DNA of 64,000 bases from Terracoccus sp. 273MFTsu3.1 (GTDB lineage Bacteria; Actinomycetota; Actinomycetes; Actinomycetales; Dermatophilaceae): positions 1-64,000 of the forward strand of contig NZ_KB911828.1 in the NCBI RefSeq assembly GCF_000383675.1, read 5' to 3'. The notes under the pieces are model-generated. The model saw only the letters and a program-made list of their open reading frames with translations, was not told the DNA's origin and did not search any database. The position numbers and the translations under genes were made by a program. This document shows, piece by piece, positions 43,899 through 63,698 of this stretch (positions within the stretch are counted from its first letter, which is position 1; every line of letters begins with the position of its first letter).

Positions 43899-44084
43899 GG
43901 TAGGTGATCCGGAGCCACCTGTGTGGTGACCTGACACAAAACCCGGCAACCCATGTGGGTCCCGCTCACCCTCGGTCACGGGGCGCCTGGGCCTCGCCGC
44001 TGTCGCCGGCGCTGTCGCCGCTGGCCTGCCCACCGGGACCTTCGCCTCTGGCCCGCGCCGCGCCGTCCGCCGGACGATGAACGG

Positions 44085-46946: not shown

Positions 46947-48464
46947 TCAGGTCTCGGATGTGAACCAGATGCCATCCCTGGCGAAGGGGTCGGCGAAGCC
47001 GACATAGCACGTCTCGAGGTACTCCTCGATGCCTTCACGACCGCCCTCGCGGCCCAGACCCGAGTGCTTGACCCCGCCGAACGGTGCGGCGGGGTTGGAC
47101 ACGACGCCGGTGTTGAGTCCGAGCATGCCGGTCTCGAGGCGCTCGCTGAGGCGCAGGCCGCGGTCGAGGTCGCGGGTGTAGACGAAGCAGACGAGCCCGA
47201 AGGGCGTCGCGTTGGCGAGACGGACGGCCTCGTCCTCGGTGTCGAAGGCCACGAGGGGGGCGACGGGACCGAAGATCTCCTCGTCGAGGATGGCCGCGCC
47301 GGCGGGCACGTCCGTGAGCACCGTGGGAGGGAAGAAGTATCCGGCCCCGTCGACCGGACGCCCGCCCAGGGCGAGGGTCGCGCCGGAGGCGACCGCCCCT
47401 TCGACCAGGCCGCTGACCTTTGACACCGCTGCTTCGTTGATGAGCGGACCCAGCCGCGTGGCAGGGTCGGTGCCCCGGCCGACCGTCACGCCGGCCATCC
47501 GCTCGGTGAGCCGGCGTGCGAACTCGGGGGCGACCCTGCGGTGCACGAGGAACCGGTTCGCGGCCACGCAGGCCTCGCCGCCGTTGCGCAGCTTGGCGGC
47601 GAGTGCTCCGTCGACGGCGGCGTCGAGGTCGGCGTCCTCGAATACGATGAAGGGCGCGTTGCCGCCGAGCTCCATCGACACCCGGAGCACCTGGTCGGCG
47701 GAGTCCGCGATGAGTCGCTGCCCGACCGCCGTGGAGCCGGTGAACGACAGCTTGCGCAGCCGGCCGTCCTTGATCAGCGGCCCGGTCACCTCCGCCGCTC
47801 GGGTCGTGGGGATGACGTTGAGCACGCCGGCGGGCAGCCCTGCGTCCTGGAGGATCTCGGCTAGCAGCAGCGCCGTGAGCGGGGTGAGCTCGGCTGGCTT
47901 GAGGACCATCGTGCACCCTGCGGCGACAGCCGGTGCGATCTTGCGGGTGGCCATGGCGAGCGGGAAGTTCCACGGGGTGATGAAGAGGCACGGACCGACC
48001 GGCCGCTTCGTCACGAGAAGGCGGTTGGCCCCATCGGGTGCGATCGAGTAGCGGCCGGAGATCCGCGGCGCCTCCTCTCCGAACCAGCGCAGGAACTCGG
48101 CGCCGTAGGCGACCTCGCCGTGCGCCTCGGCCAGGGGCTTGCCCATCTCGAGGGTCATCAGGAGCGCGAGATCGTCGGCGCGGATGGTGACGAGCTCGAA
48201 GGCCTGACGCAGGATCTCGGCCCGGACGCGCGGCGGTGTCCCGGCCCAGGACGGCTGGGCCGAATGGGCCGCGGCCAGCGCTCGCCGACCGTCACCGGGC
48301 TGCGCATCCGCGACGGAGGCGAGGACGGACTCGTTCGAGGGGTCGACCACCTCGAAGCGGCTCCCGTTCTCGGAGGCCGTCCATCGGCCGTCGATGTAGA
48401 GGCCGGTGGGGGTCCGTGCCAGCAGGGCACGTTCGGTCTCGTCGGTGACCGCTGTCGTCGTCAT
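46947..48464 (-). CDS. NAD(P)-dependent aldehyde dehydrogenase, succinate-semialdehyde dehydrogenase-like
   Basis: 505 residues of the ALDH superfamily. PWNFPLAMATRKIAPAVAAGCTMVLKPAELTP cut at about 165-195 (cofactor binding), general base Glu about 264 in MELGGNAPF, catalytic Cys about 298 in GGEACVAANRF, and C-terminal PFGGVKHSGLGREGG. NGGEACVAANR is typical of GabD-type enzymes, but glutarate, glycolaldehyde and lactaldehyde dehydrogenases are close alternatives. Start ATG 48464 with AGGAAG upstream. It is the last gene of the minus-strand region, 105 bases after the hydroxy-acid oxidase; that gap holds an inverted repeat GAGTCG-ACCGCG-CGACTC (48515-48532). Confidence 0.85.
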   Translation of the reverse strand: MTTTAVTDETERALLARTPTGLYIDGRWTASENGSRFEVVDPSNESVLASVADAQPGDGRRALAAAHSAQPSWAGTPPRVRAEILRQAFELVTIRADDLALLMTLEMGKPLAEAHGEVAYGAEFLRWFGEEAPRISGRYSIAPDGANRLLVTKRPVGPCLFITPWNFPLAMATRKIAPAVAAGCTMVLKPAELTPLTALLLAEILQDAGLPAGVLNVIPTTRAAEVTGPLIKDGRLRKLSFTGSTAVGQRLIADSADQVLRVSMELGGNAPFIVFEDADLDAAVDGALAAKLRNGGEACVAANRFLVHRRVAPEFARRLTERMAGVTVGRGTDPATRLGPLINEAAVSKVSGLVEGAVASGATLALGGRPVDGAGYFFPPTVLTDVPAGAAILDEEIFGPVAPLVAFDTEDEAVRLANATPFGLVCFVYTRDLDRGLRLSERLETGMLGLNTGVVSNPAAPFGGVKHSGLGREGGREGIEEYLETCYVGFADPFARDGIWFTSET

Positions 48465-48569: not shown

Positions 48570-49589
48570 CTAGCGGCGCACGAGGTCGGGCCCCACGTCG
48601 GAGCACGAGCGGCATCCGGCGAGCGCCAGCGACTCCTCGACCTCCGAGGTCAGGGCATCGAGCAGCGTTCGTACGCCGTCGGATCCGTCGGTCGCGAGGG
48701 CCCAGATCACCGGCCGCCCCACGAGCACGGCCCGGGCGCCGAGGGCGAGCGCCTTGACGACATGGGAACCGGTGCGCACGCCGCCGTCGACGTAGACCTC
48801 CACGTGGGCACCGACCGCTGTGGCGACCTCCGGGAGAGCGAGCGGGGCTGGCACGACACCGTCGAGCTGGCGGCCACCGTGCGTCGACACGATGACGGCC
48901 GAGGCGCCGGCGGCGACGCAGTCCCTGGCGGCTTCAGCGGTGAGCACACCCTTGGCGACGATGGGCAGCCCGGTGGACTCGGCGAGCCGCTCGAGGTCGC
49001 GAGGGCCCACGTCCGCCGCCTGCATGAGGCGCGGGTCGGCGACGTCGCGGTGGTCGAGCGCCTCCACGATGCCGGTCCTCGGCAGCGTCGCCGGGAAGCC
49101 GGCGCGCTTGCGGGCAACGCGGGGGGTGTCCACGGTCACGACAAGCGCCTTCGCGCCGGCAGCAGCGGCACGGCGAGCGATCTCGTCGGTGACGCCCCGG
49201 TCCTGGAGGACGTAGATCTGCTGCCAGAAGGGGCCGGCCGCGGCCGCCACCTCCTCGACCCGGGTGCTCGCCCTCATCGACAGTACGAGGAGACTGCCGG
49301 CGGCCTTCGCTCCCCGGGCCACCCCGACCTCCCCGTCGGGGTGGGCGAGACGGTGGGCGGCCGTAGGAGCGACGAGCACCGGTGAGGCCACGGGCTGCCC
49401 GAGCACATGGGTCGCCGGCGACGTGGCCGAGACGTCTCTCAGCACCCTCGGACGCAGCAGGACGTCGTCCCACGCCTGCTCCTGCCGCGCGAGCGTCCGC
49501 TCGGCCCCGGCGCCGGCCGCGAAGTAGGCGAAGACGTCGGGTGGCAGGACCTCCTCCGCCCGACGCAGCGACGACGCGAGGTCACTCAC
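48570..49589 (-). CDS. FMN-dependent alpha-hydroxy-acid oxidase/dehydrogenase
   Basis: 339 residues. N-terminal DVFAYFAAGAGAERTL (Tyr of the active site), PVLVAPTAAHRLAHPDGEVG, and the catalytic His about 236 in VIVSTHGGRQLDG, then the phosphate-binding VYVDGGVRTGSHVVKALALGARAVLVGRP. This family oxidises glycolate, lactate, mandelate and other 2-hydroxy acids. GTG start at 49589 overlaps the stop codon of the EboE-like gene by four bases, so it is translated as part of that unit. The C-terminus ends in a Cys-containing stretch (LALAGCRSCSDVG). Confidence 0.85.
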   Translation of the reverse strand: MSDLASSLRRAEEVLPPDVFAYFAAGAGAERTLARQEQAWDDVLLRPRVLRDVSATSPATHVLGQPVASPVLVAPTAAHRLAHPDGEVGVARGAKAAGSLLVLSMRASTRVEEVAAAAGPFWQQIYVLQDRGVTDEIARRAAAAGAKALVVTVDTPRVARKRAGFPATLPRTGIVEALDHRDVADPRLMQAADVGPRDLERLAESTGLPIVAKGVLTAEAARDCVAAGASAVIVSTHGGRQLDGVVPAPLALPEVATAVGAHVEVYVDGGVRTGSHVVKALALGARAVLVGRPVIWALATDGSDGVRTLLDALTSEVEESLALAGCRSCSDVGPDLVRR

Positions 49590-50806
49590 GTCCCCGTCAC
49601 CAGCCGCTGCGTCTCGGCGCGGATCCACTCGAGCTCGCGGGAGACGTAGTCGACGATGTCGCCGTCCTTCAGGTGCGCGGGCAGCACGTCCCAGGTGTAG
49701 GTCTCGATCTCGAGGTGGTCCGAGAGCGGGGTCTGCGCGTGCACCTCGAGAGCGGCCGTGATCCCGGAGCGGGTCGTGCTGAGACCTCCCAGGTCGTCGA
49801 GGAAGATCGGCACGTGGAAGTGGGTGCGCCACTCGCGCGGTCCGCCGCTCGGGTCGGCCCGCCAGGCTGCGATCGCGTCGGCGAGCGTGAGGAAGCGCGT
49901 CAACTCTCCGTCGCGGCGCTCCGTCGTCTGGCTGAGGTAGATCGTGTCGGTGAACGCCTCGAGGGTGTCGACGGTCGAGGCCGTGACCTCCGGAACGCGC
50001 AGCGCGGCGGCCGCCTGCAGCTTGAATACGGGGACCCCCGCCTCGGTGAGCAGCCGCAGCGAGGCGGCGATGTCCTCGAACTGCACCGACTGGTGGCAGA
50101 TGTCGAAGACGACGCCGAGGTGGCGACGGACCAGTCCCACGACCTCGCTGACCGGTAGCCCAGTGAGGCGGCAGAGCGTGTCGGTGCCGCTAGCGGACCA
50201 GACGTCCTCGCGGAACCACGCGACGGTCTCCTCGGTCGTCTCGAGGAAGCACGCCGGCTCCGGCTCGAGGGCCAGCTTGACCCGGCGTCCCGTCCGGCGT
50301 TCGAGCTCGACGAGGTGGGCGACGACCGAGAGGACGTTCTCGGTCAGCCGCGCCCGGTCCGCCGCCGTCACCACCTTGGGACGGAAGGCGAGAGGCGAGG
50401 TCTGGATCGATGGTGATACGTGCGACGGCGTCACCTCGGCGAGGATGTCGGCAACCTGGCAGGTGTAGCGCACCCGGTCCGGGCCCGACCAGTCCGGCTC
50501 GTAGACCTGCTCCATCACGACGCGGCCCTTGAAGGGGCCGTAGGGAAAGGCGTTGACGGTGTAGACGTACATGTCGTTGGCGGCCAACCACGCCCGAAGG
50601 CGCTCGCGCTCGGCTGCGTCCTCGGTCAGCGTCTGGGCGGAGGAGGCCGACAGCCGCAACGACACGGCATACGGCTCGTCGGGCGCGATCCGGGCCTTCA
50701 CGAGCGGGGCGTACGTCATGAGGCTGTCACTCATCTCGTCCCAGGTGTCGCCGGGGTGCACGAGCGTTGAGTAGGCGAGGTGCTGGACGGCCGGGGTGGG
50801 CTTCAC
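49586..50806 (-). CDS. EboE-like TIM-barrel protein (xylose-isomerase-like)
   Basis: 406 residues. YSTLVHPGDTWDEMSDSLM, YAVSLRLSASSAQTL, YVYTVNAFPYGPFKG and MEQVYEPDWSGPDRV match the EboE family, TIM-barrel proteins first seen in the ebo (edge-biogenesis) clusters of cyanobacteria and other bacteria and called metabolite-traffic proteins. Acidic and His residues that could bind a metal are in LALEPEPACFLETTEE, VVFDICHQSVQFED and HFHVPIF. No other ebo gene is present here. GTG start overlaps the E2-like stop codon, and its own stop overlaps the oxidase start. Role is unknown; an isomerase or epimerase of a small polyol or sugar acid is possible. Confidence 0.6.
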   Translation of the reverse strand: MKPTPAVQHLAYSTLVHPGDTWDEMSDSLMTYAPLVKARIAPDEPYAVSLRLSASSAQTLTEDAAERERLRAWLAANDMYVYTVNAFPYGPFKGRVVMEQVYEPDWSGPDRVRYTCQVADILAEVTPSHVSPSIQTSPLAFRPKVVTAADRARLTENVLSVVAHLVELERRTGRRVKLALEPEPACFLETTEETVAWFREDVWSASGTDTLCRLTGLPVSEVVGLVRRHLGVVFDICHQSVQFEDIAASLRLLTEAGVPVFKLQAAAALRVPEVTASTVDTLEAFTDTIYLSQTTERRDGELTRFLTLADAIAAWRADPSGGPREWRTHFHVPIFLDDLGGLSTTRSGITAALEVHAQTPLSDHLEIETYTWDVLPAHLKDGDIVDYVSRELEWIRAETQRLVTGT

Positions 50807-51579
50807 GACGCCCTCCGATCGTGGGCCTCGAGCCGTTGACGGACCTGGGTGAGCAACACGGCCGCGTCGGTGCCCGCCGCATGCTCGTCGACGGTCAGGG
50901 CGAGGTGGACGAACGTGCCCATCCCGATCCCGCGGCCGCCGTCGGGCAGGGCGACGACTGCCGGTCGGTCGACGGCGTCGCCGACGGAGAGCGCCACGAG
51001 CTCGCCGCCCGCGAGGACGGGGAGGTCGAACAGCAGCCCGGTGCCCCGCAGGTCGTGGACGGCCAGCGTCGCGCCGGATGGCTCGCCCTCGTGCGCGGGG
51101 ACGGCGGATGCGTCGTCGAGAGTCCGTCGCAGCCCTGACACCGAGAGGTCGTGGGCGTTCACGACCTCCCGGTGTGGCCCGTCCGGGGCGTGGACCCTCA
51201 GGACAGGGCGGGACGCCGCGGTGGCTGCACCGGAGACCGCGCGGAGCGCCTGGACGGCGGACTCGACGACGCTGGCGAGCAGGTCCGTCGTCCTCGCGAG
51301 TCTCGTGACCTCGACCTCTGCGACGGAGGTGCGCAGCTTCCGGGACTCGATGGCTACTGCAGCAGAGGGGGATTCGGCGGTCGTCGCGGCACGGCCCACG
51401 TCGGCCACAGTGACCCGACCGAGCGGGCCCGTCCCGGCAATCCTGTCGAGGCTCACCCCTCGGTCGCTCGCCAGGCGCCGCACCCGTGGGGAGTGGACGT
51501 GACGAGGGCGACGGCCTCCGGGAGGGGCGGCCGGCCTCCCCCCGGGGAGGAAGGGGGCGAGCGCGGCGGGCACGCTCAC
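50803..51579 (-). CDS. Truncated, probably non-catalytic E2-like subunit
   Basis: 258 residues. It starts almost directly with a peripheral-subunit-binding domain (HSPRVRRLASDRGVSLDRIA, then GTGPLGRVTVADV; residues about 29-61). There is no lipoyl domain, since only 28 residues precede it. The remainder follows the E2 catalytic fold but is short. The motif normally written DHRxxDG reads DEHAAGTD (231-238), so the catalytic His/Asp arrangement is lost. It therefore looks like an E1-binding scaffold rather than an acyltransferase. GTG start overlaps the E1 beta stop (GTGA), and its stop overlaps the EboE-like start. No lipoyl protein or E3 gene is in the window. Confidence 0.7.
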   Translation of the reverse strand: MSVPAALAPFLPGGRPAAPPGGRRPRHVHSPRVRRLASDRGVSLDRIAGTGPLGRVTVADVGRAATTAESPSAAVAIESRKLRTSVAEVEVTRLARTTDLLASVVESAVQALRAVSGAATAASRPVLRVHAPDGPHREVVNAHDLSVSGLRRTLDDASAVPAHEGEPSGATLAVHDLRGTGLLFDLPVLAGGELVALSVGDAVDRPAVVALPDGGRGIGMGTFVHLALTVDEHAAGTDAAVLLTQVRQRLEAHDRRAS

Positions 51580-52553
51580 GACTGCAGCGCCTTCTCGACG
51601 GTGCTGGCGACGCTCTCGGCCGAGGGCATGACGAGGTCCTCGAGGGAGTCGGCCGACGGCAGCGGGATGTGGGGCGTCGTGATCCGCTGCACCGGCCCGT
51701 CGAGGTCCCAGAACGCCTCGTCGGCGACGATGGAGGCGATCTCGGCGCCCCAGCCCAGCAGCTGCGGGTTCTCCTCGACGGTGAAGAGCCGACCCGTCCT
51801 CGCCACCGACCCCAGGATGGTTCGGGTGTCGAGCGGCACGAGCGAGCGCACGTCGATGACCTCGGCGTCGATGCCTCGCGTGGCCAGGTCCTCTGCCGCT
51901 GCCAGCGCCCGCGGGACCATCATGCCTAGGGCGAGGATCGTTGCGTCACGGCCGGGCCGCCGGATCTTGGCGGTGCCGAGGCTGTCGACGATCTCGCCGT
52001 CGGGGACCTCGCCCTTGGAGGCATAGAGGCCCTTGTGCTCGCAGAAGATCACGGGGTCCTCGTCGCGGATGGCCGCGGCCATGAGGCCGACGACGTCCTC
52101 GGCGGTCGAGGGGGTCACGACCTTGAGGCCGGGGACGGCCATCGCCCAGTTCTCGATCGACTGCGAGTGCTGCGCCCCGAAGCGCAGGCCACCGCCGTTG
52201 CCCGTCTTGATGACGAGGGGCAGGCTCACCTGCCCGTCGGTCATGTAGCGCGTCTTGGCGATCTGGTTCACGACGATGTCCCAGCACACGGCGAAGAAGT
52301 CGGAGAACATGATCTCGGCCACCGGCCGCAGCCCCGTCATCGCGGCGCCCATGGCCGCCCCGAGGATGGCCTGCTCGCTGATGGGCGTGTCGAGGACCCG
52401 CTTCGGGCCGAACTCGTCGAGCAGGCCGACGGTCGTCTTGAAGACGCCTCCCGCCCCGGCGATGTCCTCGCCGACGACGACGACGCGCTCGTCACGACGC
52501 ATCTCCTGCGCGATGCCTCGTGCCACTGCATCTCGGTAGCTCAGTTGCGCCAT
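51576..52553 (-). CDS. TPP-dependent dehydrogenase E1 component, beta subunit
   Basis: 325 residues. LSYRDAVARGIAQEMRRDERVVVVGEDI is the standard opening of E1 beta. The cofactor and subunit-interface region is RVLDTPISEQAILGAAMGAA, and HSQSIENWAMAVPGLKVVTPS corresponds to the active-site His segment. Closest family types are acetoin (AcoB), pyruvate and branched-chain E1 beta. ATG at 52553 with GGAGG six bases upstream; an ATG two codons earlier is the alternative. It overlaps E1 alpha by 13 bases and the E2-like gene by four. Confidence 0.88.
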   Translation of the reverse strand: MAQLSYRDAVARGIAQEMRRDERVVVVGEDIAGAGGVFKTTVGLLDEFGPKRVLDTPISEQAILGAAMGAAMTGLRPVAEIMFSDFFAVCWDIVVNQIAKTRYMTDGQVSLPLVIKTGNGGGLRFGAQHSQSIENWAMAVPGLKVVTPSTAEDVVGLMAAAIRDEDPVIFCEHKGLYASKGEVPDGEIVDSLGTAKIRRPGRDATILALGMMVPRALAAAEDLATRGIDAEVIDVRSLVPLDTRTILGSVARTGRLFTVEENPQLLGWGAEIASIVADEAFWDLDGPVQRITTPHIPLPSADSLEDLVMPSAESVASTVEKALQS

Positions 52554-53605
52554 GACCATCCTCCATCAGCCCAGACATCGGTGAAAGCACTCTCGGGAGA
52601 GGGAAGTTCACCAGCGATGGCTCCCTCGGTGGCGGCGTCGACGAGGGCGAGCACACTCGCGTCGATGGCGTCGAGCTCGTCCTCGGACACGCCCAGCCGC
52701 ACCAAGCGCTCGCGGTAGACCGTGAGCGGGTCGTACGCCTTCCACGCCTCGACCTCCTCGCTCGGGCGGTACTTGCCCGGATCGGCCCGCGAGTGCCCGC
52801 CGTGACGGTAGGTCAGCGCCTCCACGAGGGAGGGGCCCTGCCCCGAGCGGGCGCGGTCGAGGGCCGTCACCGCGGCGAGGTGGACCTCGTCCGCGTCGTT
52901 GCCGTCGATGACGATCGACTCGAGCCCGTAGGCAGGGGCCCGGTCGGCGGCTGGGTGCGGGACCGCGGTGATGTCGTGGATGGAGGTGTACTCCATGTAG
53001 AGGTTGTTCTCACAGACGAAGACGACCGGCAGGCGGTAGACGGCGGCATAGTTGAGGGCCTCGTGGAACGCGCCGATGTTGGTGGTGCCGTCGCCGAAGA
53101 AGCAGACGGCCACCTGGCCCGACCCGCGGTACTGCGCCGACCACGCGGCGCCGTTGGCGATCGTCAGGTGTGCCCCGATGATCGCGTAGGAGCCCATCAT
53201 CCCGTGCTCGACGCTCGTGAGGTGCATCGAACCGCCCTTGCCGCCCATGAGGCCGTTGGCCCGGCCGAGCAGCTCGGCGAGCACGGGCGTCATCGGCACG
53301 CCGCGCGCCAGGGTGTGGGCGTGCCCTCGGTAGGTCGCGAAGGTGTAGTCGTCCTCGCGCATCGCGGCGCCGAAGCCGGCTGCGATCGCCTCCATCCCGA
53401 GCGACAGGTGGCTCGTGCCCTTGACGAGCTGCTTCATGAACAGGTCGTAGGCGCGCTTCTCGAAGGTGCGCATCTCCCGCATCGACCGGTAGAGCTGCCG
53501 GCGGCGGTCGAGGTCGACATCGAGGGCGTCGTTGGCGTCGCTGCGCTCCGGGGGGAGCACGACGCCGTGCTCGCCGTAGCGGTGCTCGGACAGGGGAAGC
53601 TTCAT
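52541..53605 (-). CDS. TPP-dependent dehydrogenase E1 component, alpha subunit
   Basis: 354 residues. MREMRTFEKRAYDLFMKQLVKGTSHLSLG cut near residues 39-67, the phosphorylation-loop region THLTS-like segment GGSMHLTSVEHG, and the TPP motif GDGTTNIGAFHEALNYAAVYRLPVVFVCENN cut across residues about 168-198 (GDG...NN). YRHGGHSRADPGKYR is the conserved His loop. The pattern suits acetoin or pyruvate dehydrogenase E1 alpha. ATG start overlaps the stop of the M24 gene (ATGA), so the M24 protein and the E1 are translationally coupled. Confidence 0.88.
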   Translation of the reverse strand: MKLPLSEHRYGEHGVVLPPERSDANDALDVDLDRRRQLYRSMREMRTFEKRAYDLFMKQLVKGTSHLSLGMEAIAAGFGAAMREDDYTFATYRGHAHTLARGVPMTPVLAELLGRANGLMGGKGGSMHLTSVEHGMMGSYAIIGAHLTIANGAAWSAQYRGSGQVAVCFFGDGTTNIGAFHEALNYAAVYRLPVVFVCENNLYMEYTSIHDITAVPHPAADRAPAYGLESIVIDGNDADEVHLAAVTALDRARSGQGPSLVEALTYRHGGHSRADPGKYRPSEEVEAWKAYDPLTVYRERLVRLGVSEDELDAIDASVLALVDAATEGAIAGELPSPESAFTDVWADGGWSWRN

Positions 53606-54957
53606 GCGGGGACCTCCGACGGGGTGGCACTGCCGGCGCGGTTGAGGTGGGACTGGCTGTCGCGCATGGTCGGCAGGTAGCCACCGGTGGTGAAGTAGCG
53701 CTTTCCGGCCACGAGCAACTCCTCGGCCGGGAACTTCGTGATGACCTCGCAGCCGGTGGCCGTCACGACGACCTCCTCCTCGATCCGAGCGGCGCCCCAC
53801 CCGTCGGCTGCGGGCCAGTAGGTCTCGAGGGCGAAGACCATGCCCTCCTCGAGCGTCTCGGGGCTGTCGAAGGAGGTCAGACGACTGAAGATCGGCCGCT
53901 CCCAGATCGACAGGCCGATGCCGTGGCCGTACTGCAGCGCGAAGGCAGCCTCCTCGTTGGCGAAGCCGAACTCCTGGGCCGTCGGCCACAGCGCGACGAC
54001 GTCGGCGGTCGTGACGCCCGGCCTGATGATGTCTATCGCCCGGTCCATGAGCTCGCGGCAGATCGTGTACGCGTCACGCTGCGCCCTCGACGCGCTGCCC
54101 ACCGCGAAGGTGCGGTAGTAGCAGGTGCGGTAGCCCATGAAGCTGTGCAGGATGTCGAAGAACGCCGGGTCCCCGGGTCGGATGAGGCGGTCGGTGAACA
54201 CGTGCGGATGCGGCGAGCAGCGTTCTCCCGAGATGGCATTGACTCCCTCGACGTGCTCGGAGCCGAGGTCGTAGAGGGTCTTGCTCACCAGGCCGACGCA
54301 CTCGTTCTCACGCACCCCAGGCCGCAGGAACTCGTAGAGGTTCTCGTAGGCCGCGTCCACCATCGAGGCGGCCTGGGTGAGCAGGCCGATCTCGTCACCG
54401 GTCTTGATCCGCCTCGCCGCGAGGAACTGCTGCTGCCCGTCGACGACGTGGAAGCCGGCCGCCTCGAGGGCGAAGAGAACGGGCGGCTCGATGATGTCGA
54501 CACCGATGTCCTGCCCTTCGAGGCCGAAGTCGCGCATCACCTGGGCGACCTTGGCGGCGACGTCCGCTGCGCGGCCGGCCTCCGGGGAGATGGCGCCGCG
54601 GAGGGTGGAGATGCCGGCACGGGCGCCGTAGTGGTCACCCCGACCTGCGGCCGCGTGCGGCTCGTCGAGCCAGCGCGACTGGAGCTGGTGGTGCCGCGCG
54701 GCCGAGCCGAAGTCCCAGAGGACGGGGTCGCCGCCGCGGGGCAGGATCGCGAAACGGATCATCTTGTCCATGGCCCACGTCCCGATGTGGGTCGCGGTCA
54801 TGTAGCGGATGTTGTGGAAGTCGAAGGTCAGCAGGGCGCCCAGGTCCGACCGGTCGAGCTCTGCCTTGAGCCGGGCGAGCCGGTCGCGGCGCAGCCGGTC
54901 CATGTCGAGACGACTCTCCCAGTCGACCGCGTTCGTGCCGTACGTCGGTGACACCAT
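53602..54957 (-). CDS. M24 (pita-bread) family protein with altered metal site
   Basis: 451 residues. An N-terminal creatinase-type domain (LLTFDFHNIRYMTATHIGTW; VLWDFGSAARHH) is followed by the pita-bread domain. Of the five ligands of M24 metalloenzymes, four are visible: Asp268, His345 (GHGIGL), Glu378 (FALETYW) and Glu393 (ARIEEEVVV). The second Asp, expected 11 residues after the first, is Cys279 (FDILHSFMGYRTCYYRTF). The N-terminal domain resembles DddP-like and creatinase-like proteins more than aminopeptidase P. Activity may be a hydrolase or lyase rather than a peptidase. ATG 54957 with GAGGAG six bases upstream. It is coupled to E1 alpha. Confidence 0.75.
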   Translation of the reverse strand: MVSPTYGTNAVDWESRLDMDRLRRDRLARLKAELDRSDLGALLTFDFHNIRYMTATHIGTWAMDKMIRFAILPRGGDPVLWDFGSAARHHQLQSRWLDEPHAAAGRGDHYGARAGISTLRGAISPEAGRAADVAAKVAQVMRDFGLEGQDIGVDIIEPPVLFALEAAGFHVVDGQQQFLAARRIKTGDEIGLLTQAASMVDAAYENLYEFLRPGVRENECVGLVSKTLYDLGSEHVEGVNAISGERCSPHPHVFTDRLIRPGDPAFFDILHSFMGYRTCYYRTFAVGSASRAQRDAYTICRELMDRAIDIIRPGVTTADVVALWPTAQEFGFANEEAAFALQYGHGIGLSIWERPIFSRLTSFDSPETLEEGMVFALETYWPAADGWGAARIEEEVVVTATGCEVITKFPAEELLVAGKRYFTTGGYLPTMRDSQSHLNRAGSATPSEVPA

Positions 54958-54990: not shown

Positions 54991-55575
54991 CTAGTGAGCC
55001 GGTGGCGCTGGGACGGGGGGTGATGGGGTGAGGTGGTCCTCGACGTCTGCGGGCGGTGGGAGGGGTGGCCGGGTGAGCAGGTAGGCCGCAGCGGCGGCCG
55101 CGCGCTCCTCGGCGAGGTAGTAGGCCACCTCGACGAGCTCGAGGGCCATCCCGTCGGGGTCGCTGAAGTAGACCCAACGCCAGCCCGCGAGGGGGCCGGA
55201 GTCGACCACATTGACGTCGGAGTAGAAGGTGACGCCGCGCGCCTCGAGGTCGGCCTTGGTCGCGCGGACGTCCGCGACGCGGAAGCAGACGTGGGCTGCG
55301 CCGAGGTGGTTGTTCGGTATCGGACGGGTGCTCGTCACCGGGCGGTTCGCGTACTCGATGAGCTCCATCATCGAGTGCTCACCCGCCCAGAAGCAGACTT
55401 GGCGCAGGCGGGCGCCGGGCACGCCCACGCCCTTCTCGAGGTCCGGTCCGTCGAACCACGGAGTGGGTTCATTGGCGAAAGGCAGGCCGAGCACGTCGTG
55501 GTAGAACCGGATCGACCGGTCGAGGTCCGTCACGACGAGACCGACGTGGTGCACCGCCTGCAGCTGGGATCCCAT
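54991..55575 (-). CDS. VOC (glyoxalase/dioxygenase-like) family protein
   Basis: About 193 residues. VHHVGLVVTDLDRSIRFYHDVLGL (opening), candidate metal ligands His in VHHVGLVV, Glu in SMMELIEYA, His in AAHVCFRV and Glu in DPDGMALELVEV, as in glyoxalase I and related metalloenzymes. The C-terminus is a Pro-rich tail. Start taken at ATG 55575 with GGAGG five bases upstream; a GTG at 55593 that overlaps the dehydrogenase stop is the alternative. It lies in the same operon as the upstream dehydrogenase; isomerase, epimerase or lyase activity on an oxo-acid or hydroxy-ketone intermediate is possible. Confidence 0.8.
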   Translation of the reverse strand: MGSQLQAVHHVGLVVTDLDRSIRFYHDVLGLPFANEPTPWFDGPDLEKGVGVPGARLRQVCFWAGEHSMMELIEYANRPVTSTRPIPNNHLGAAHVCFRVADVRATKADLEARGVTFYSDVNVVDSGPLAGWRWVYFSDPDGMALELVEVAYYLAEERAAAAAAYLLTRPPLPPPADVEDHLTPSPPVPAPPAH

Positions 55576-55589
55576 GGCCGCCTCCCGCG

Positions 55590-56666
55590 TCACGCCGGAC
55601 CGGCGCTGGTCGGTGAGACGAGGATCTTCAGCTGGTCACCCGAGGGGCTGACGAGGACGTCGAACCCATCGGTGACGACGCGCTCGAGACCGATCTGCGC
55701 GGTGACGGCCTTGGCGACCGGGTACTTCCCCGAGGCGATGAGCCGGATGATTCGGGGCCAGTCGGTGATCAGGTAGCACCAGCTGCCGATATAGCTGATG
55801 TCTTTCTCGGACAGGCGCATCGCGTCGATCGTCGCCGGCTTGGTGTGCAGGCCGGTCTGGACGATCGAGCCCCGGGTTCGGACGCTGTTCATCGCGGTGG
55901 TGAGGCCCGGCGTGCTGCCCGAGCACTCGGCCACGACGTCGACGCCCGCGCCTCGTGTCAGTTGCGCGATCGACTCGGCGAAACCGTCGGCGGTGGGGTC
56001 GAGCACCGGTCCGACGTCGAGCGCGGCTGCGAGGGCGGCCCGGTTTGGGTTGGGCTCGGCGATCACCACGGTCGCCGCGCCGAGCGCATCGGCATACAGC
56101 GCGGAGAGCACGCCGATCGGGCCGGCGCCGGTGACGAGCACGATGTCGCCGCCGCGGATCCCGACCCGGTCGATACCGTATGCCGCCACGCTCGCGGGCT
56201 CGACGACGGCTCCCTCGACGTCTGAGACCTCGTCCGGCAGGGTCGAGACCTGGTACTCCTTGAGCACGGCATACTGCGCGAGTCCGCCTGTCTCGGCGGA
56301 CAGTCCGGTGCAGGCGAAGCGTACGCACAGGTGACCGAGCCCCTGGCGGCAGAACGTGCAGCGACCGCAGACGATGGCCGGCATGATCGCGACGCGGTCG
56401 CCAACGGCCACGTCGGTGACCTGCGGGCCCACCTCGACGACCCGCGCCGAGAACTCGTGCCCGAGCGTCTGCGGGAGGGTCGCGCCGGTGAGGGGGTGCG
56501 GGGACGTGGGGGTGACGATGGGGCCCACGACGTACTCGTGGAGGTCAGTGCCGCAGATGCCGCACCAGAGGACCTCGACGAGGACGTCGTCGGCTGCCTT
56601 GATCTCCGGGATCGCGACGTCCTCGATGCGGATGTCGGACTTTCCGTGGAAGCGTGCTGCACGCAC
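55590..56666 (-). CDS. Zinc alcohol dehydrogenase, 2,3-butanediol dehydrogenase-like
   Basis: 358 residues of the medium-chain dehydrogenase family. The opening AARFHGKSDIRIEDVAIPEI, then CGICGTDLHEYVVGPI, and LTGATLPQTLGHEFSARVVEVG closely follow (R,R)-butanediol dehydrogenase. Catalytic zinc ligands are in GICGTD (Cys38) and GHE (69-71); structural zinc cysteines are 100, 103, 106 and 114. NAD-binding motif is VTGAGPIGVLSALYA. It oxidises a secondary alcohol such as butanediol, sorbitol or threonine. GTG start at 56666 with GAGGAG upstream. It is downstream of the ABC transporter genes on the same strand. Confidence 0.82.
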   Translation of the reverse strand: MRAARFHGKSDIRIEDVAIPEIKAADDVLVEVLWCGICGTDLHEYVVGPIVTPTSPHPLTGATLPQTLGHEFSARVVEVGPQVTDVAVGDRVAIMPAIVCGRCTFCRQGLGHLCVRFACTGLSAETGGLAQYAVLKEYQVSTLPDEVSDVEGAVVEPASVAAYGIDRVGIRGGDIVLVTGAGPIGVLSALYADALGAATVVIAEPNPNRAALAAALDVGPVLDPTADGFAESIAQLTRGAGVDVVAECSGSTPGLTTAMNSVRTRGSIVQTGLHTKPATIDAMRLSEKDISYIGSWCYLITDWPRIIRLIASGKYPVAKAVTAQIGLERVVTDGFDVLVSPSGDQLKILVSPTSAGPA

Positions 56667-56764: not shown

Positions 56765-59251
<2,487 letters not shown>

Positions 59252-59364: not shown

Positions 59365-60483
59365 TCACTTGAGCAGCTTCGCCTGGGCCTGTCCGTCCAT
59401 CTGGGCAGACAGGTAGATGTCACCGGGGAGGTCCTTCTTGCACGTCACCGGGTTGGGCTTGCTGCCGACGGAGTCCTCGAAGGTCGGCGCCTTGAACTGC
59501 TTCGACGACGGCGGCGTGCCGCCCGTCGCGAGGGCGACGGCCCACTGGACGGCGAGGCGGGCGTTGTCGTTGCCCGTCGCGACGGTGAAGAGCTTGAAGT
59601 CAGGGTTCTGCGCCTTGTGGGCCTCGTAGAAGCACGACAGAACGTTGCCGTCCGAGGTCGCGAGAGCCGGGATCGAGCGCCCGCTCTTCTCGAACTCCGG
59701 CAGGGCTCCGACGAGGGAGGGGCCGAAGTCGGAGACGATCGCGTCGATCTTCGGGTACTTCGCGATCGCGGCGCTCAGCACCTGCTGCGTCTTTGCCGGA
59801 TCCCAGTTGGTGACCTCGAAGGGCGCCTGCCCGATGAAGGTGTACTTCCCGGTGGGGTCGAGGACGCTCTTCATGCCCTTGAGCTCGTCGAGGCCCTGGC
59901 TGTTGCCGGCGGGACCGGACAGGAACAGGATGTTGCCGCCGTCGGGCAGGGTCTTGACGAGCCAGTCGGCCCAGTTCTTGCCGTCCGTGACGAAGTCCGC
60001 ACCCACCCAGACGTCGTAGTCCTTGCCGTCGGCGCCGCCCGGGTTGACTCGGTAGGGCACGGTGGTGACGCCGGCCTCCTTGGCGCTCTGGAGCGCCGGC
60101 AGCATGGCGTTGCCCGCGTCGGGGAAGACGACGAGGGCGTTGACGCCCTTGGCGACCAGGCCCTGGATGTCGGAGATGGCCTTCTGCGTGTCGCCCTGTC
60201 CGTCGGCGTACGTGAAGCTCGTGACGCTCGGGCACTTGGCGATCTCGTCCTTGGCCGAGGCCGTGGTGACGAGCCGCCAGCTGTTGCCGCCGAAGCCGTC
60301 GGTCAGGCCGAGGGTGATCTTGTTGGAGCCGCACCAGGAGGGGGCTCCGGCGACGGTGCTGCCTGCGGCAGTGCCGCCGGCGCCGGGAGCACCGTCCTCG
60401 GACGAGCTGCCGCAGGCGGCAAGAGCCAGGGCTGCGACGCCGGACATCGCGAGGAGGCGGACGGCGGTGGTGGATCGGGACAT
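59365..60483 (-). CDS. Ribose-type ABC transporter substrate-binding lipoprotein
   Basis: 372 residues, RbsB/type I periplasmic-binding family. The signal peptide ends in lipobox LALAAC (Cys24), followed by Ser/Gly/Ala-rich linker. Mature domain: ITLGLTDGFGGNSWRLVTTA, DTQKAISDIQGLVAKGVNAL, VVFPDAGNAMLPALQ, VWVGADFVTDGKNWADWLV and FLSGPAGNSQGLDELKGM. This is typical of sugar or polyol binders, but the ligand cannot be named. ATG start at 60483. It lies between the two permease-bearing genes of the same operon. Confidence 0.88.
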   Translation of the reverse strand: MSRSTTAVRLLAMSGVAALALAACGSSSEDGAPGAGGTAAGSTVAGAPSWCGSNKITLGLTDGFGGNSWRLVTTASAKDEIAKCPSVTSFTYADGQGDTQKAISDIQGLVAKGVNALVVFPDAGNAMLPALQSAKEAGVTTVPYRVNPGGADGKDYDVWVGADFVTDGKNWADWLVKTLPDGGNILFLSGPAGNSQGLDELKGMKSVLDPTGKYTFIGQAPFEVTNWDPAKTQQVLSAAIAKYPKIDAIVSDFGPSLVGALPEFEKSGRSIPALATSDGNVLSCFYEAHKAQNPDFKLFTVATGNDNARLAVQWAVALATGGTPPSSKQFKAPTFEDSVGSKPNPVTCKKDLPGDIYLSAQMDGQAQAKLLK

Positions 60484-60538: not shown

Positions 60539-61549
60539 TCAGGCCGCGACGGTGGCGGCGCGGCGGTCTGACCGTCTGCGGAGCCGGGACCAGTTGATGG
60601 TGTAGAGCGCGACGCCGATGGCGAACGCAGCCGACTGCACGAGGGTCTTGCCCGCGAAGTCGAAGCCGAGGGCCAGAACGAACTGGTCCAGCTGGGTCAG
60701 GAAGAGGGCAGCGACGGCGGTGGCCACGAGGTTGCCCCGGCCACCGAGCAGAGAGGTGCCTCCGAGCACCACGGCCGCCACCGAGGCGAGCAGGTAGCTG
60801 TCGCCCTGGTATGCCGTCGGCTTGTTGAGGATGCCGGCGAGCAGGAGCGCTCCCAGCCAGTAGAAGACCTGCGCGAAGACGTAGCCGCCGGCCTTGAAGC
60901 CCTGCACGCGCAACCCCGCCGCCCACGCCGCCGAGCCGTTGGCCCCGACGGCCTCGAAGCGACGTCCTGACGCCGTCTTCTTGACGACGACCGTGACGAC
61001 GGCCGTGGCCACCACGGCGACGACGAGAGCGTGCGGGACGCCGAGTGTGCTGTCACCGGCGAGGCGGGCGAGCAGGTCGGTGGTCTGGCGCGGCGTGCCG
61101 CCCGACACGCCCAGGACCGCGGCGTACAGCAGGGCGTTGGTGCCGAGGGTGGCGACGATCGGGTTGAGGCCGAGCCGCCCGATGAGCAGGCCGTTGCCGA
61201 GCCCGGTGAGGAGGGAGACGCCCAGGGCCAACAGGGCCGCCGGGAGCACCTTGGAGTCGTCGCCGTAGGCCTGGTGGGTCACGATGACGATGACGAGCGA
61301 CACCGAGCCGGCGACCGAGAGGTCGATGCCGCCCTGCATGACGACCAGCGTCTGGCCGAGGGCGACGATCGCGAGCACCGCCGCGAACGGCAGCATGCTC
61401 TGGACCGCGCCGGAGCTGACGCTGCTCGGGGCGAGGACGAAGCCGGCGGCGACGAGGAGGGCCAGGGCCGCGACCACGGTGAGCAGTCCGCGCGACAGCG
61501 ACCGCGGTGCGCGGCGCGAAGGTGCGGCTGTCTCGTTCTTCGGGTCCAT
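60539..61549 (-). CDS. Ribose-type ABC transporter permease
   Basis: 336 residues of the RbsC/BPD_transp_2 family with about nine or ten membrane segments. ALGQTLVVMQGGIDLSVAGSVS, LGLNPIVATLGTNALLYAAV, and GGTSLLGGRGNLVATAVAAL are the family motifs. It is a second permease in addition to the one fused to the ATPase, so the membrane domain is probably a heterodimer. ATG 61549 with GAGGAG six bases upstream. It is the first gene after a recognisable promoter at about 61622-61650. Confidence 0.88.
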   Translation of the reverse strand: MDPKNETAAPSRRAPRSLSRGLLTVVAALALLVAAGFVLAPSSVSSGAVQSMLPFAAVLAIVALGQTLVVMQGGIDLSVAGSVSLVIVIVTHQAYGDDSKVLPAALLALGVSLLTGLGNGLLIGRLGLNPIVATLGTNALLYAAVLGVSGGTPRQTTDLLARLAGDSTLGVPHALVVAVVATAVVTVVVKKTASGRRFEAVGANGSAAWAAGLRVQGFKAGGYVFAQVFYWLGALLLAGILNKPTAYQGDSYLLASVAAVVLGGTSLLGGRGNLVATAVAALFLTQLDQFVLALGFDFAGKTLVQSAAFAIGVALYTINWSRLRRRSDRRAATVAA

Positions 61550-61732: not shown

Positions 61733-62641
61733 CTATCCGCGCGTCTCGGGCTGCGTGGGGGAGTGCGCGGCGGCCGGCGCGTGGAACCGGCTCAGGTCGG
61801 CCATGTCACGCGGACCCCAGCCGGCGTCGACGGCGGCCTGGACCCGCGCGAGCGCCTGCTCGGTCAGCGGCAGCGCCGCGCCGGTGGTCCGGCCCTGTGC
61901 GGTGATGAGGCCGAGGTCCTTGGCGACGAGGGCCAAGCTCATCGCGGTCGGTGTCTCGGGATCGAGGAACGCGGAGCGCTTGTATCGGACGAAAGGCGCT
62001 GCCACCACACTGCGTTCGAGCACGTCGTAGGCCTCGGCGCGAGGGACGCCGGAGCGCTCGGCAAGGTCGAGCGCCTCCGCGAGGGCGGCGTTGAGGTCGT
62101 GCACGACGAGGTTGACCGCGAGCTTCATGGCCTGTCCCGCGCCGACGTCGCCCACTCGGAGCACCTCGGCCGCGAAGGCCTTGAGCACCACGCGTGCGGC
62201 CGCGACGTCCTCGGGCGTGCCGGACGCCATCACGAGCAGCGTGCCGGCGACGACCGCCGGCACGCTCCCCGACACGGGGGCGTCCACGAAGCGGTGACCG
62301 GCCTCGCGCAGGTGACGTCCCAGCGTGGCCGCGGCGTCGGTGCCGCTGGTACCCAGGTCGATGACGAGGGTGCCTGGCGTCAACCCGCGCTGAACGGCGT
62401 CGGCGAGCAGGACCGAGCGGGTGACGCCGCCGTCGGCGAGCACGGTCAGCACGGCGTCAACACCGGTCACTGCGTCCTCTGCGGTCTCGGCCAGGACGAG
62501 GCCATCGCCGCTCGAGTCCACCAGGGCGCGGGCCGAGGCCGTCGTCCGGTTCCAGACGCGGACGTGGTGTCCGGCCCCGGCCAGGCGAAGGGCCATCGCG
62601 GCGCCCATGCGCCCGGTCCCGAGGAGCGCGACCTCAGCCAC
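61733..62641 (-). CDS. 3-hydroxyisobutyrate dehydrogenase-family oxidoreductase
   Basis: 302 residues of the beta-hydroxyacid dehydrogenase family. NAD(P) motif ALLGTGRMGAAMALRLAGAG near the N-terminus, VDAPVSGSVPAVVAGTLLVM (substrate-binding loop, about 118-137), catalytic Lys in GAGQAMKLAVNLVVHDLNAA (about 170). Members oxidise 3-hydroxyisobutyrate, tartronate semialdehyde, 2-hydroxy-3-oxopropionate or similar. GTG start at 62641 overlaps the end of the upstream alcohol dehydrogenase by eight bases. Separated from the ABC operon by a 183-bp promoter region. Confidence 0.85.
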   Translation of the reverse strand: MAEVALLGTGRMGAAMALRLAGAGHHVRVWNRTTASARALVDSSGDGLVLAETAEDAVTGVDAVLTVLADGGVTRSVLLADAVQRGLTPGTLVIDLGTSGTDAAATLGRHLREAGHRFVDAPVSGSVPAVVAGTLLVMASGTPEDVAAARVVLKAFAAEVLRVGDVGAGQAMKLAVNLVVHDLNAALAEALDLAERSGVPRAEAYDVLERSVVAAPFVRYKRSAFLDPETPTAMSLALVAKDLGLITAQGRTTGAALPLTEQALARVQAAVDAGWGPRDMADLSRFHAPAAAHSPTQPETRG

Positions 62642-63698
62642 GGCGGGGGTCCACGAGGATCTTGCCGCCGGCGGTCCCGGCCATGAGTGGCTCGAGACCG
62701 CGCGTGACGACGTCGTCCAGCGGCACGGTCGTGGTCCCGATGGTCTCGCCGAGCGGGCTTCCCTCGAGCAGGGCGAGGGCGCGCGGGAGATCGGTGGCAC
62801 AGATGTGGGCGACCGTCGTGGCGATGTCGACCTCGCGCAGCACGACATCGGAGAGGACGAGCTCCTGGGGCGCCTTGACCAGACCGACGAACAAGGTTCG
62901 GCCGCCTCGGGCGCAGAGCGCGAGCGAGCGGGCCGCGGCGCCCGGGGCGCCCGAGCTCTCGATGACCACCTGGGGGTCGACCCCGACGAGGTCGCGCAGC
63001 TCCTCCACGGTGCTGTCGCGGCTCACGGCTATGGTCCGGGTCGCCCCGAGCCGCTCTGCCACGTCGAGCCGCTCGGGATCGACGTCAACGACCGTGACCG
63101 TGCCGCGGTGGTCGCGCAGCCCGGCGAGGATGAAGGAGCCGATCGCGCCGGCTCCGAGGAGCAGCACGTCGTCGTCGGGAGCGATGCCGGCCCGGTCGAC
63201 GGCGTGCAGCCCGACGGCGAGGGGCTGTGCGAGCACCGCCTCCGTGTCGTCGCAGCCCTCGGGGACCGGCACGAGCGTGCTGACGGGGGCGGCCACGAGC
63301 TCGGCGAGGCCGCCGTGCGTGGACAGACCCAGCGTGTAGTAGCCGGCGCAGAGGTTGGTCCGACCCGCTGCGCACCAGCGGCAGCTGCCGCACGAGACCC
63401 CCGCGCCGCTTGCGACACGGCGGCCGACCCAGGAGCCGAGGTCGGCGTCGCCTCCGGGCCCCACGTCGACCACGGTCCCGATGAACTCGTGTCCCAGCAC
63501 GGTCGGCCCCACGTGTCCGCTCCCCGGGTGACGCCGGTGGAGTGGGACCATCATGGGCCCCTTGGCGTACTCGGTGGCGTCGGTGCCGCACAGGCCGTTG
63601 AGGGTGACCTCGATCAGGACCTCGCCGGCGCGGGGCCGGGGGTCTGGGCGGGTCTCGACCCGGAGGTCGTGGGGAGCGTGGAGCACTCCTGCGCGCAT
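62634..63698 (-). CDS. Zinc-dependent alcohol dehydrogenase
   Basis: 354 residues of the zinc-binding medium-chain dehydrogenase family. GLCGTDATEYAKGPM (catalytic Cys), VLGHEFIGTVVDVG (His/Glu), structural zinc cysteines in SCGSCRWCAAGRTNLC, and NAD motif LLLGAGAIGSFILAG. It resembles sorbitol, threonine and butanediol dehydrogenases. The substrate is unknown. ATG start at 63698 with AAGGAG eight bases upstream. It is co-directional with a partial dehydrogenase gene on its 5' side, 19 bases away, and overlaps the 3-hydroxyisobutyrate dehydrogenase-like gene. Confidence 0.85.
   Translation of the reverse strand: MRAGVLHAPHDLRVETRPDPRPRAGEVLIEVTLNGLCGTDATEYAKGPMMVPLHRRHPGSGHVGPTVLGHEFIGTVVDVGPGGDADLGSWVGRRVASGAGVSCGSCRWCAAGRTNLCAGYYTLGLSTHGGLAELVAAPVSTLVPVPEGCDDTEAVLAQPLAVGLHAVDRAGIAPDDDVLLLGAGAIGSFILAGLRDHRGTVTVVDVDPERLDVAERLGATRTIAVSRDSTVEELRDLVGVDPQVVIESSGAPGAAARSLALCARGGRTLFVGLVKAPQELVLSDVVLREVDIATTVAHICATDLPRALALLEGSPLGETIGTTTVPLDDVVTRGLEPLMAGTAGGKILVDPRRG

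Follow-up and report, generated by a model that had tools for sequence, protein, structure and literature searches.

What does an E1 enzyme of the 2-oxo-acid dehydrogenase type do when the E2 protein encoded beside it is degenerate and the flanking genes belong to other enzyme families? The question is raised by a locus of Terracoccus sp. 273MFTsu3.1, contained in a window of 64,000 nt (contig NZ_KB911828.1, positions 1 to 64,000), whose numbering is used throughout. On the minus strand, from 54957 to 48570, six genes encode an M24-family protein, the alpha and beta subunits of a thiamine pyrophosphate (TPP)-dependent E1 (E1alpha and E1beta), a remnant of an E2 acyltransferase (E2t), an EboE-like protein and a 2-hydroxy-acid oxidase (HAO). 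The E1 of 2-oxo-acid dehydrogenases has been understood as one station of a complex. Our reading, held tentatively and at somewhat less than an even chance, is that the six genes belong to a catabolic operon that would import and oxidize a polyol- or cyclitol-like compound and cleave a C-C bond with a TPP-dependent E1 working outside the classical complex. The gene set, its overlaps, its conservation, the degeneration of the E2 and the absence of a lipoyl-bearing E2 near most of the relatives examined were observed directly. Loci, genomes and contigs of the strain's own genome are cited below by L, G and C numbers.

Every junction in the unit is an overlap, as an earlier note on this DNA had read from the sequence. 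The stop of the M24 gene (53602) and the ATG of E1alpha (53605) share an ATGA, and E1alpha (stop 52541) and E1beta (ATG 52553) overlap by 13 bases. A GTGA is formed by each of the remaining pairs, namely the E1beta stop at 51576 with the E2t start at 51579, the E2t stop at 50803 with the EboE start at 50806, and the EboE stop at 49586 with the HAO start at 49589. An alternative E1beta start (ATG 52559) would give an overlap of 19 bases; the start at 52553 is preferred because a GGAGG sits 6 bases before it and abuts 52559 directly. The five overlaps keep identical lengths in two genomes of the same genus (G007 and G008; loci L051 and L052) and are therefore not due to chance. As the earlier note took from such overlaps, the six proteins may be produced in a constant ratio. 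The stretches from these two genomes begin at the transporter permease, and the comparison covers the genes from the permease to an aldehyde dehydrogenase. Gene content and order are those of the window, at 82-96% identity, except that the VOC gene has no match there and that E2t, at 59-60%, falls below the other operon genes. When 147 genomes were searched with E2t, true matches (62% identity) outside its own genome were found in G007 and G008 only; the other matches were weak (up to 5.6e-14), as ordinary E2 proteins give. The permease-to-aldehyde-dehydrogenase unit is present in three of nine listed genomes of the genus; of the six without it, one has a completeness of just 74%. A scan of the minus strand between 46400 and 64000 gave no terminator-like or promoter-like site, but it works at chance level and carries little weight in GC-rich actinobacteria. 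The unit is real and conserved, and probably catabolic.

Is it the operon of a classical complex? The E1 pair is of the type found in pyruvate dehydrogenase (PDH) and branched-chain 2-oxo-acid dehydrogenase (BCKDH), by Pfam matches (PF00676, PF02779, PF02780) and by its solved E1 relatives. It shares the TPP motif with these complexes and with acetoin dehydrogenase, the other active-site residues having been compared by eye. However, the window unit has no lipoyl domain, no E2 motif and no E3 gene, and it is joined to M24, EboE and HAO genes. The acetoin dehydrogenase gene set acoA/acoB/acoC/acoL includes a lipoyl E2 and an E3. An acetoin, pyruvate or branched-chain dehydrogenase operon was ruled out because the unit contains neither a lipoyl E2 nor an E3, E2t matching PF02817 only. 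The mismatch that the earlier note had pointed out thus holds for these operons as defined by those two components.

E2t consists of a peripheral-subunit-binding (docking) domain at about residues 25-65 and a shrunken core at about residues 139-254, with a tail that aligns weakly to the actinobacterial SucB model from residue 139. Two relatives of the unit carry an E2 of full length. In Nonomuraea (L154), an importer and an alcohol dehydrogenase are found with M24, E1alpha (76% identity), E1beta (82%) and a full E2. In a metagenome-assembled genome of doubtful taxonomic label (L132), the order is alcohol dehydrogenase, VOC, M24, E1alpha, E1beta, E2 and EboE; its E2 has lipoyl, docking and catalytic domains, and HAO and aldehyde dehydrogenase do not follow EboE. 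Compared with these two proteins, E2t lacks the lipoyl domain and the front of the catalytic domain. The defining active-site motif of E2 acyltransferases is DHxxxDG. It reads DHRLVDG in L154 and DHRAIDS in L132, and has become VDEH-AAG in the window and VDEH-LAG in L051 and L052. E2t looks secondarily degraded, because L132 has the same order from alcohol dehydrogenase to EboE with a full E2 and because a full E2 follows the closest E1, that of Nonomuraea. The earlier note had proposed to give up its reading if the same set with a full-length E2 proved to be already described. The order does exist in L132 from the alcohol dehydrogenase to EboE, but no paper describing it was found.

The selection acting on E2t was estimated by the Nei-Gojobori method, comparing the window with L051 and L052 for E2t and ten other operon genes. 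The ratio of nonsynonymous to synonymous substitution rates (dN/dS) is 0.37-0.38 for E2t, versus 0.05-0.19 for the other ten. E1alpha and E1beta lie at 0.05-0.08, which denotes strong constraint. Within E2t, the ratio is 0.21-0.22 for the docking domain, 0.47-0.52 for the linker and 0.37-0.40 for the core; between L051 and L052 it is about 1, on few changes. An AlphaFold2 (AF2) model of E2t has a mean predicted local distance difference test score (pLDDT) of 75.1 with a confident core. A PDB search with this core ranked the actinobacterial E2p core DlaT first and AceF cores fourth to tenth. The underlying alignment held seven sequences, four of them full E2 proteins, and may bias the model toward the E2 fold. 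Sequence and model together indicate that E2t keeps a docking module and a fold resembling the E2 core, minus the catalytic motif, under selection that is relaxed yet purifying. Both a reading as an adaptor and a reading as a vestige therefore stand.

How often does an E1 pair of this kind occur without an E2 beside it? A scan of genome contigs confirmed at least 584 relatives of the M24 protein, and the best 80 loci were kept. E1 is encoded in the fetched stretch of 51 of these 80 (split in 32, fused in 19), while 9 encode EboE and 18 a CUT2-type binding protein. E2 neighbours were then surveyed in 109 loci (9 named or same-genus loci, 20 others and the best 80) with hidden Markov models (HMMs) for lipoyl and E2 catalytic domains. 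The lipoyl HMM was seeded with eight segments, from L102 (two), L103, L127, L131, L132, L154 and the E2 on C3, which match by construction; L124, L125 and 15 of 18 fused-E1 controls lie outside the seed. A split E1 pair was recognised in 46 of the 109 loci, directly behind M24 in 44; for 43 of the 44, the downstream sequence is 2.5 kb or longer. Left out of this count were L111 and L137 (E1 not beside M24) and L167 (1.5 kb downstream only), and the window itself is uncounted. A lipoyl domain lies within 5 kb in five of the 43 (L102, L124, L125, L132 and L154). In the other 38, which include L051 and L052, the HMM found no lipoyl domain anywhere in the fetched stretch. A match to the E2 catalytic domain is likewise absent from 36 of these 38 stretches, the remaining two being L051 and L052. 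In the fused-E1 control, a lipoyl domain was found in 18 of 18 loci (22 rows minus L101, L188 and L189, with at most 2 bases downstream, and L124, a 33% match of split type). Units of M24 and E1 that have no E2 are spread over several families of Actinomycetota.

A tree of joined E1alpha and E1beta sequences was built for a selection of the counted loci (32 rows). Omitted from it were L127 (end branch 10, probably a wrong open reading frame [ORF]), L111 (a long branch whose E1 is not next to M24) and the outgroup from C3. The window and L051 are sister to L154, with its full E2 (100/100); the other eight rows of this group have no E2 (fork 86/91). L132 stands beside eleven E2-less rows of a Streptomyces-like group (91/82), and the presence and absence of a lipoyl E2 requires three changes on the tree. 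Since the window is placed beside the full-E2 locus L154, the two very likely descend from an ancestor with a working E2, which was then lost in the window genus. A lineage with mostly E2-less E1 pairs, a half-lost E2t and relatives with a full E2 provides a natural series for the loss of a complex.

An E2 in two pieces has been found elsewhere. On Rhodobacterales plasmids (L102, L124 and L125), the E2 is encoded as two proteins, one with lipoyl and docking domains and one catalytic, and an aldehyde dehydrogenase gene separates the two. These plasmids (Phaeobacter pP92_e, Pacificitalea, Tritonibacter) share with the window an M24 protein of the same Cys-bearing subfamily (56-57% identity), an E1 pair, an aldehyde dehydrogenase and a sugar ABC transporter. 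Their order is M24, E1alpha, E1beta, lipoyl protein, aldehyde dehydrogenase and E2 catalytic protein, with E3 next in Phaeobacter, and EboE is missing from the stretches. The records of plasmids with M24 relatives provide contexts only and no tested substrate. In the window, a plus-strand E2-catalytic gene at 45656-46525 was considered as the missing half of E2t and rejected, being on the opposite strand, beside an esterase-like ORF, and without a match in L051 or L052. Its protein matches the Phaeobacter E2 catalytic protein weakly (27%) and retains the motif DHAVVDG.

Because the E1 lineage is mostly without an adjacent E2, and because E2t has lost both the lipoyl domain and the active-site motif, the E1 of the window probably works without a dedicated acyl-transferring E2. 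Several observations weigh against this conclusion and against the pathway built on it. The E2-less loci are not 38 independent cases, 19 of them being Streptomyces by title. They may also run another pathway than the window operon: 28 of them encode an amidohydrolase and 15 a bicupin protein, neither of which the window operon has. In only 7 of the 38 does an aldehyde dehydrogenase follow E1 at a short distance, so the release of an aldehyde and its oxidation are not general among them. The strain's own genome encodes other lipoyl-bearing E2 proteins on C8 and C3 (on C3 beside another E1), which could serve the E1 in trans. Finally, the E2t frame is intact in all three species and its docking domain has a dN/dS of 0.21, so E2t may have a function.

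The last two points belong to the main rival explanation of the E1 step. E2t would be a working adaptor like the E3-binding protein (protein X), its docking domain holding E1/E3 and its inactive core joining a housekeeping E2 core, so that E1 would borrow lipoyl domains in trans and make acyl-CoA. The likeness to protein X consists of the docking domain and the inactive E2-like core. Protein X usually has a lipoyl domain, whereas E2t has none and is encoded in a bacterial catabolic operon. The start and stop of E2t are coupled in all three species and its modelled core keeps the E2 fold, although the small alignment behind the model may have pulled it there. On the other hand, E2t is the fastest evolving of the neighbours tested, and in 36 of the E2-less loci the stretch has no E2 catalytic-domain match. 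We consider the adaptor somewhat unlikely. It has also to be asked whether an ordinary 2-oxo-acid dehydrogenase pathway is simply decaying, with E2t a dying gene and the E1 step being lost or served by another complex. The missing lipoyl domain and motif, the relaxed dN/dS and the patchy presence in the genus would fit such a decay. However, E1alpha, E1beta, M24 and the transporter are under strong purifying selection with open frames, and E2-less M24-E1 units persist across families, which makes decay very unlikely.

The E1 pair is not the only part of the unit to depart from its family. In the M24 protein, the second metal-ligand Asp is a Cys, a position set by alignment to prolidase 3q6d. 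All 16 aligned relatives have this Cys (GYRTCYYRTF and near variants), and D268, H345, E378 and E393 are invariant among them. By motif count, 110 of the 111 relatives with at least 50% identity have the Cys, and the exception (L202) is cut by the end of its stretch; of two more distant matches, one has Cys and one Gln. At E <=1e-30, a threshold that admits proteins of about 30% identity, relatives occur in 47 genomes out of 396 from the phylum. Among other M24 enzymes such as creatinase and ectoine hydrolase, the nearest NCBIfam model is that of the dimethylsulfoniopropionate (DMSP) lyase DddP, but the window protein scores 105 bits against a cut-off of 600; the ectoine hydrolase model is also matched below its cut-off. 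In DddP, two metals are held by six residues including Asp307 of RdDddP (PMC4108388), and Cys279 would be the equivalent of that Asp307. A plain peptidase role was ruled out by the Cys in place of Asp and by the operon context. The protein is probably a small-molecule lyase or hydrolase, and the unit sets apart an M24 subfamily whose metal site contains a Cys that is both conserved and unusual. Across loci L099-L205, the partners of this subfamily differ between lineages and include E1 (split or fused), RidA, amidohydrolase, bicupin and SDR genes.

The EboE-like protein has no Pfam match at 0.001 and exceeds the cut-off of NF035939 (250 bits), by which it shares the EboE family and a xylose-isomerase-like fold with the ebo operons (scytonemin and eustigmatophyte ebo clusters). 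In contrast to those, it stands in a separate operon-type clade (100/100; 10 rows versus 11) with an insertion of about 24 residues, lies outside the ebo-type clade and outside any ebo cluster, and has catabolic neighbours. In a Foldseek search, its AF2 model (pLDDT 90.4) was matched with a probability of 1.00 by UlaE, xylose isomerase and tagatose 3-epimerase-like proteins; the TM-score is about 0.5 when normalised to query length and reaches 0.73 when normalised to target length. Invariant residues E181, D235, Q264, H331 and E368 map to the C-terminal ends of predicted strands or to adjacent positions, where metal ligands sit in the xylose-isomerase-like superfamily. EboE was found at 1e-20 in 18 of 396 genomes of the phylum. 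Fourteen EboE loci were inspected, representing 13 of the 18 genomes (12 besides the strain's own, which contributed its second copy), and none had a window-type M24 or E1 at E 1e-8. L054, the branch closest to the operon-type clade from outside, adjoins a 3-dehydroquinate (DHQ)-synthase-like sugar phosphate cyclase and a TatD gene, and descent of the operon EboE from a cyclitol-handling enzyme is plausible for this reason. The ebo operon has been proposed to make a cyclitol derivative (PMC5133447), and cyclitol formation is likewise mentioned elsewhere (PMC6282210). The unit ties the unexplained EboE family to catabolism and offers a route to its reaction. For these two proteins, present labels such as 'Xaa-Pro peptidase family protein' and 'metabolite traffic protein EboE' probably mislead.

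The strain's own second EboE is encoded on contig C1 (L056:4930-11906), in an ebo-like cluster that also contains genes for a UbiA-type prenyltransferase (SCO3242 family) and for TatD-like, PhnA-like and inositol-phosphate-synthase-like proteins. The TatD-like and PhnA-like genes are far under their model cut-offs, and no sugar phosphate cyclase was identified in this cluster.

Why do these families occur together? The earlier note had regarded three unrelated enzyme families as inserted into an E1/E2 operon, and the reverse was seen. M24 is directly followed by EboE in six of the nine EboE-bearing loci among the best 80 (L126, L129, L130, L131, L133 and L140), and the E1-E2 block stands between the two in the window genus and in L132. 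Across the compared loci, the recurring backbone is a regulator, alcohol dehydrogenases, a ribose-type importer, VOC, M24 and EboE, with the E1-E2t block placed between M24 and EboE. The odd gene combination is explained by this shared M24-EboE backbone and an E1-E2 module with a degraded E2. Keyword searches of the literature returned no paper on this gene set, which is weak evidence of absence given that subscription papers are mostly outside their coverage.

From these parts we infer a substrate class, an order of steps and an E2-independent chemistry. A ribose-type ABC importer would take up a polyhydroxylated, polyol- or cyclitol-like compound, and zinc alcohol dehydrogenases would turn it into a ketone. 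EboE would isomerise, epimerise or dehydrate the ketone, and M24 would break a C-O or C-N bond (C-C less likely). E1alpha/beta would then cleave the resulting 2-oxo acid or alpha-hydroxyketone non-oxidatively, releasing an aldehyde with no dedicated acyl-transferring E2, and the aldehyde dehydrogenase and HAO would finish the fragments. The transporter and VOC protein that the earlier note had placed upstream on the same strand are present, as is an alcohol dehydrogenase, which it had called butanediol-dehydrogenase-like. Its suggestion of polyol-like import, oxidation and TPP-dependent cleavage is reasonable in view of the CUT2-type binding protein, the IolM-like alcohol dehydrogenase and the xylose-isomerase-like EboE. 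The iol pathway of inositol breakdown combines import, a dehydrogenase, a xylose-isomerase-like dehydratase and a TPP enzyme. By analogy, the operon resembles it in logic (CUT2-type import, dehydrogenase, xylose-isomerase-like TIM barrel, TPP-dependent C-C cleavage, aldehyde dehydrogenase), while no test made places it in that pathway. It differs in that its TPP enzyme is an E1alpha/beta pair and not IolD, that its dehydrogenase falls under the IolM cut-off (211 bits against 450) and that M24 is extra.

The amidohydrolase and bicupin genes of the E2-less relatives make the polyol substrate less certain. The substrate could instead be a nitrogen-containing or aromatic compound, with M24 acting on a C-N bond as creatinase and ectoine hydrolase do; this is possible, if doubtful. 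The amidohydrolases are deaminase-like, one member scoring 634 bits with NF006056 (cut-off 391). On Paenarthrobacter plasmids, relatives of M24 are accompanied by genes for RidA and flavin reductase and, in one case, for amidase, and ectoine hydrolase is among the model matches of M24. However, the amidohydrolase and bicupin are not in the window operon, which has a CUT2 sugar-type importer, an IolM-like dehydrogenase and EboE. An SDR protein of one cluster is also encoded in 22 of the 38 E2-less loci. A wider form of the polyol or cyclitol reading may be considered, in which M24-linked E1alpha/beta pairs would be a widespread class of free TPP-dependent C-C lyases or decarboxylases fed by a Cys-ligand M24 lyase, and here, with the catabolic EboE clade, would degrade a cyclitol related to the ebo product. 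In this full extent, the proposal is unlikely.

Table 1. Genes of the operon in the window, in the direction of transcription (all on the minus strand).
Gene product	Position (strand)	Domain or model match	Remarks
Zn alcohol dehydrogenase	62634..63698 (-)	PF08240/PF00107	Second alcohol dehydrogenase of the operon; recurring upstream backbone
3-Hydroxyisobutyrate-dehydrogenase-like NAD(P) oxidoreductase	61733..62641 (-)	PF03446/PF14833	Recurs near M24
Ribose-type (CUT2) ABC permease	60539..61549 (-)		ORF extends to 61630; 95% identical in L051/L052; recurs near M24
Sugar-type solute-binding protein	59365..60483 (-)	PF13407	
ABC ATPase fused to permease	56765..59251 (-)		828 aa; chosen start, ORF extends to 59368; 89% in L051/L052
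Zn alcohol dehydrogenase	55590..56666 (-)	Nearest model IolM (scyllo-inosose 3-dehydrogenase), below cut-off	
VOC (glyoxalase-type) protein	54991..55575 (-)	PF00903	
M24 protein, Cys-ligand subfamily	53602..54957 (-)	PF00557	Cys279 replaces the second metal-ligand Asp
E1alpha, TPP-binding subunit	52541..53605 (-)	PF00676, 237 bits	GDG...NN motif present
E1beta	51576..52553 (-)	PF02779 + PF02780	Solved E1 beta relatives to E 1e-80
E2t, E2 remnant	50803..51579 (-)	PF02817 (E3_binding) only Pfam match	
EboE-like xylose-isomerase-type TIM-barrel protein	49586..50806 (-)	NF035939, 430 bits	Catabolic clade
HAO, FMN-dependent 2-hydroxy-acid oxidase family	48570..49589 (-)	PF01070, 356 bits	Solved relatives lactate and glycolate oxidase
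Aldehyde dehydrogenase, succinate-semialdehyde-dehydrogenase-like	46947..48464 (-)	PF00171; TIGR01780, 551 bits (cut-off 646)	Last gene of the run

Several neighbours recur outside the genus. The alcohol dehydrogenase at the head of Table 1 belongs to the same cluster as proteins in Actinoplanes (L129) and Nanopelagicales (L140), and a third alcohol dehydrogenase, 77% identical to its Actinoplanes counterpart in L129, is encoded at or beyond the end of the window on the same contig. The XRE-cupin regulator of the operon lies just outside the window (L064:4807-5703, minus strand) and is 58% identical to its counterpart in L129; its homologue cluster was found in 49 of the compared loci. The best solved relatives of the solute-binding protein are CUT2-type sugar-binding proteins, at E 5e-14 at best, which is too distant for naming a ligand. 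HAO relatives are found directly behind M24 in L127 (68%) and about 4 kb behind it in L128 (67%), and in the window the aldehyde dehydrogenase gene starts 105 bases past HAO on the same strand. As to lipoyl domains, PF00364 is matched at six places in the genome, all on contigs other than the window's.

An ORF of similar length to the fused ABC ATPase-permease stands at the same place in L129. A tRNA-Asp called by ARAGORN at 59539-59625 (plus strand), antisense inside the solute-binding-protein gene, is probably a false positive. On the plus strand at 43953-46525, a type B carboxylesterase-like ORF (568 aa, family assigned by eye) and the stand-alone PF00198 protein overlap by GTGA; neither ORF was matched in the stretches of the two sister genomes.

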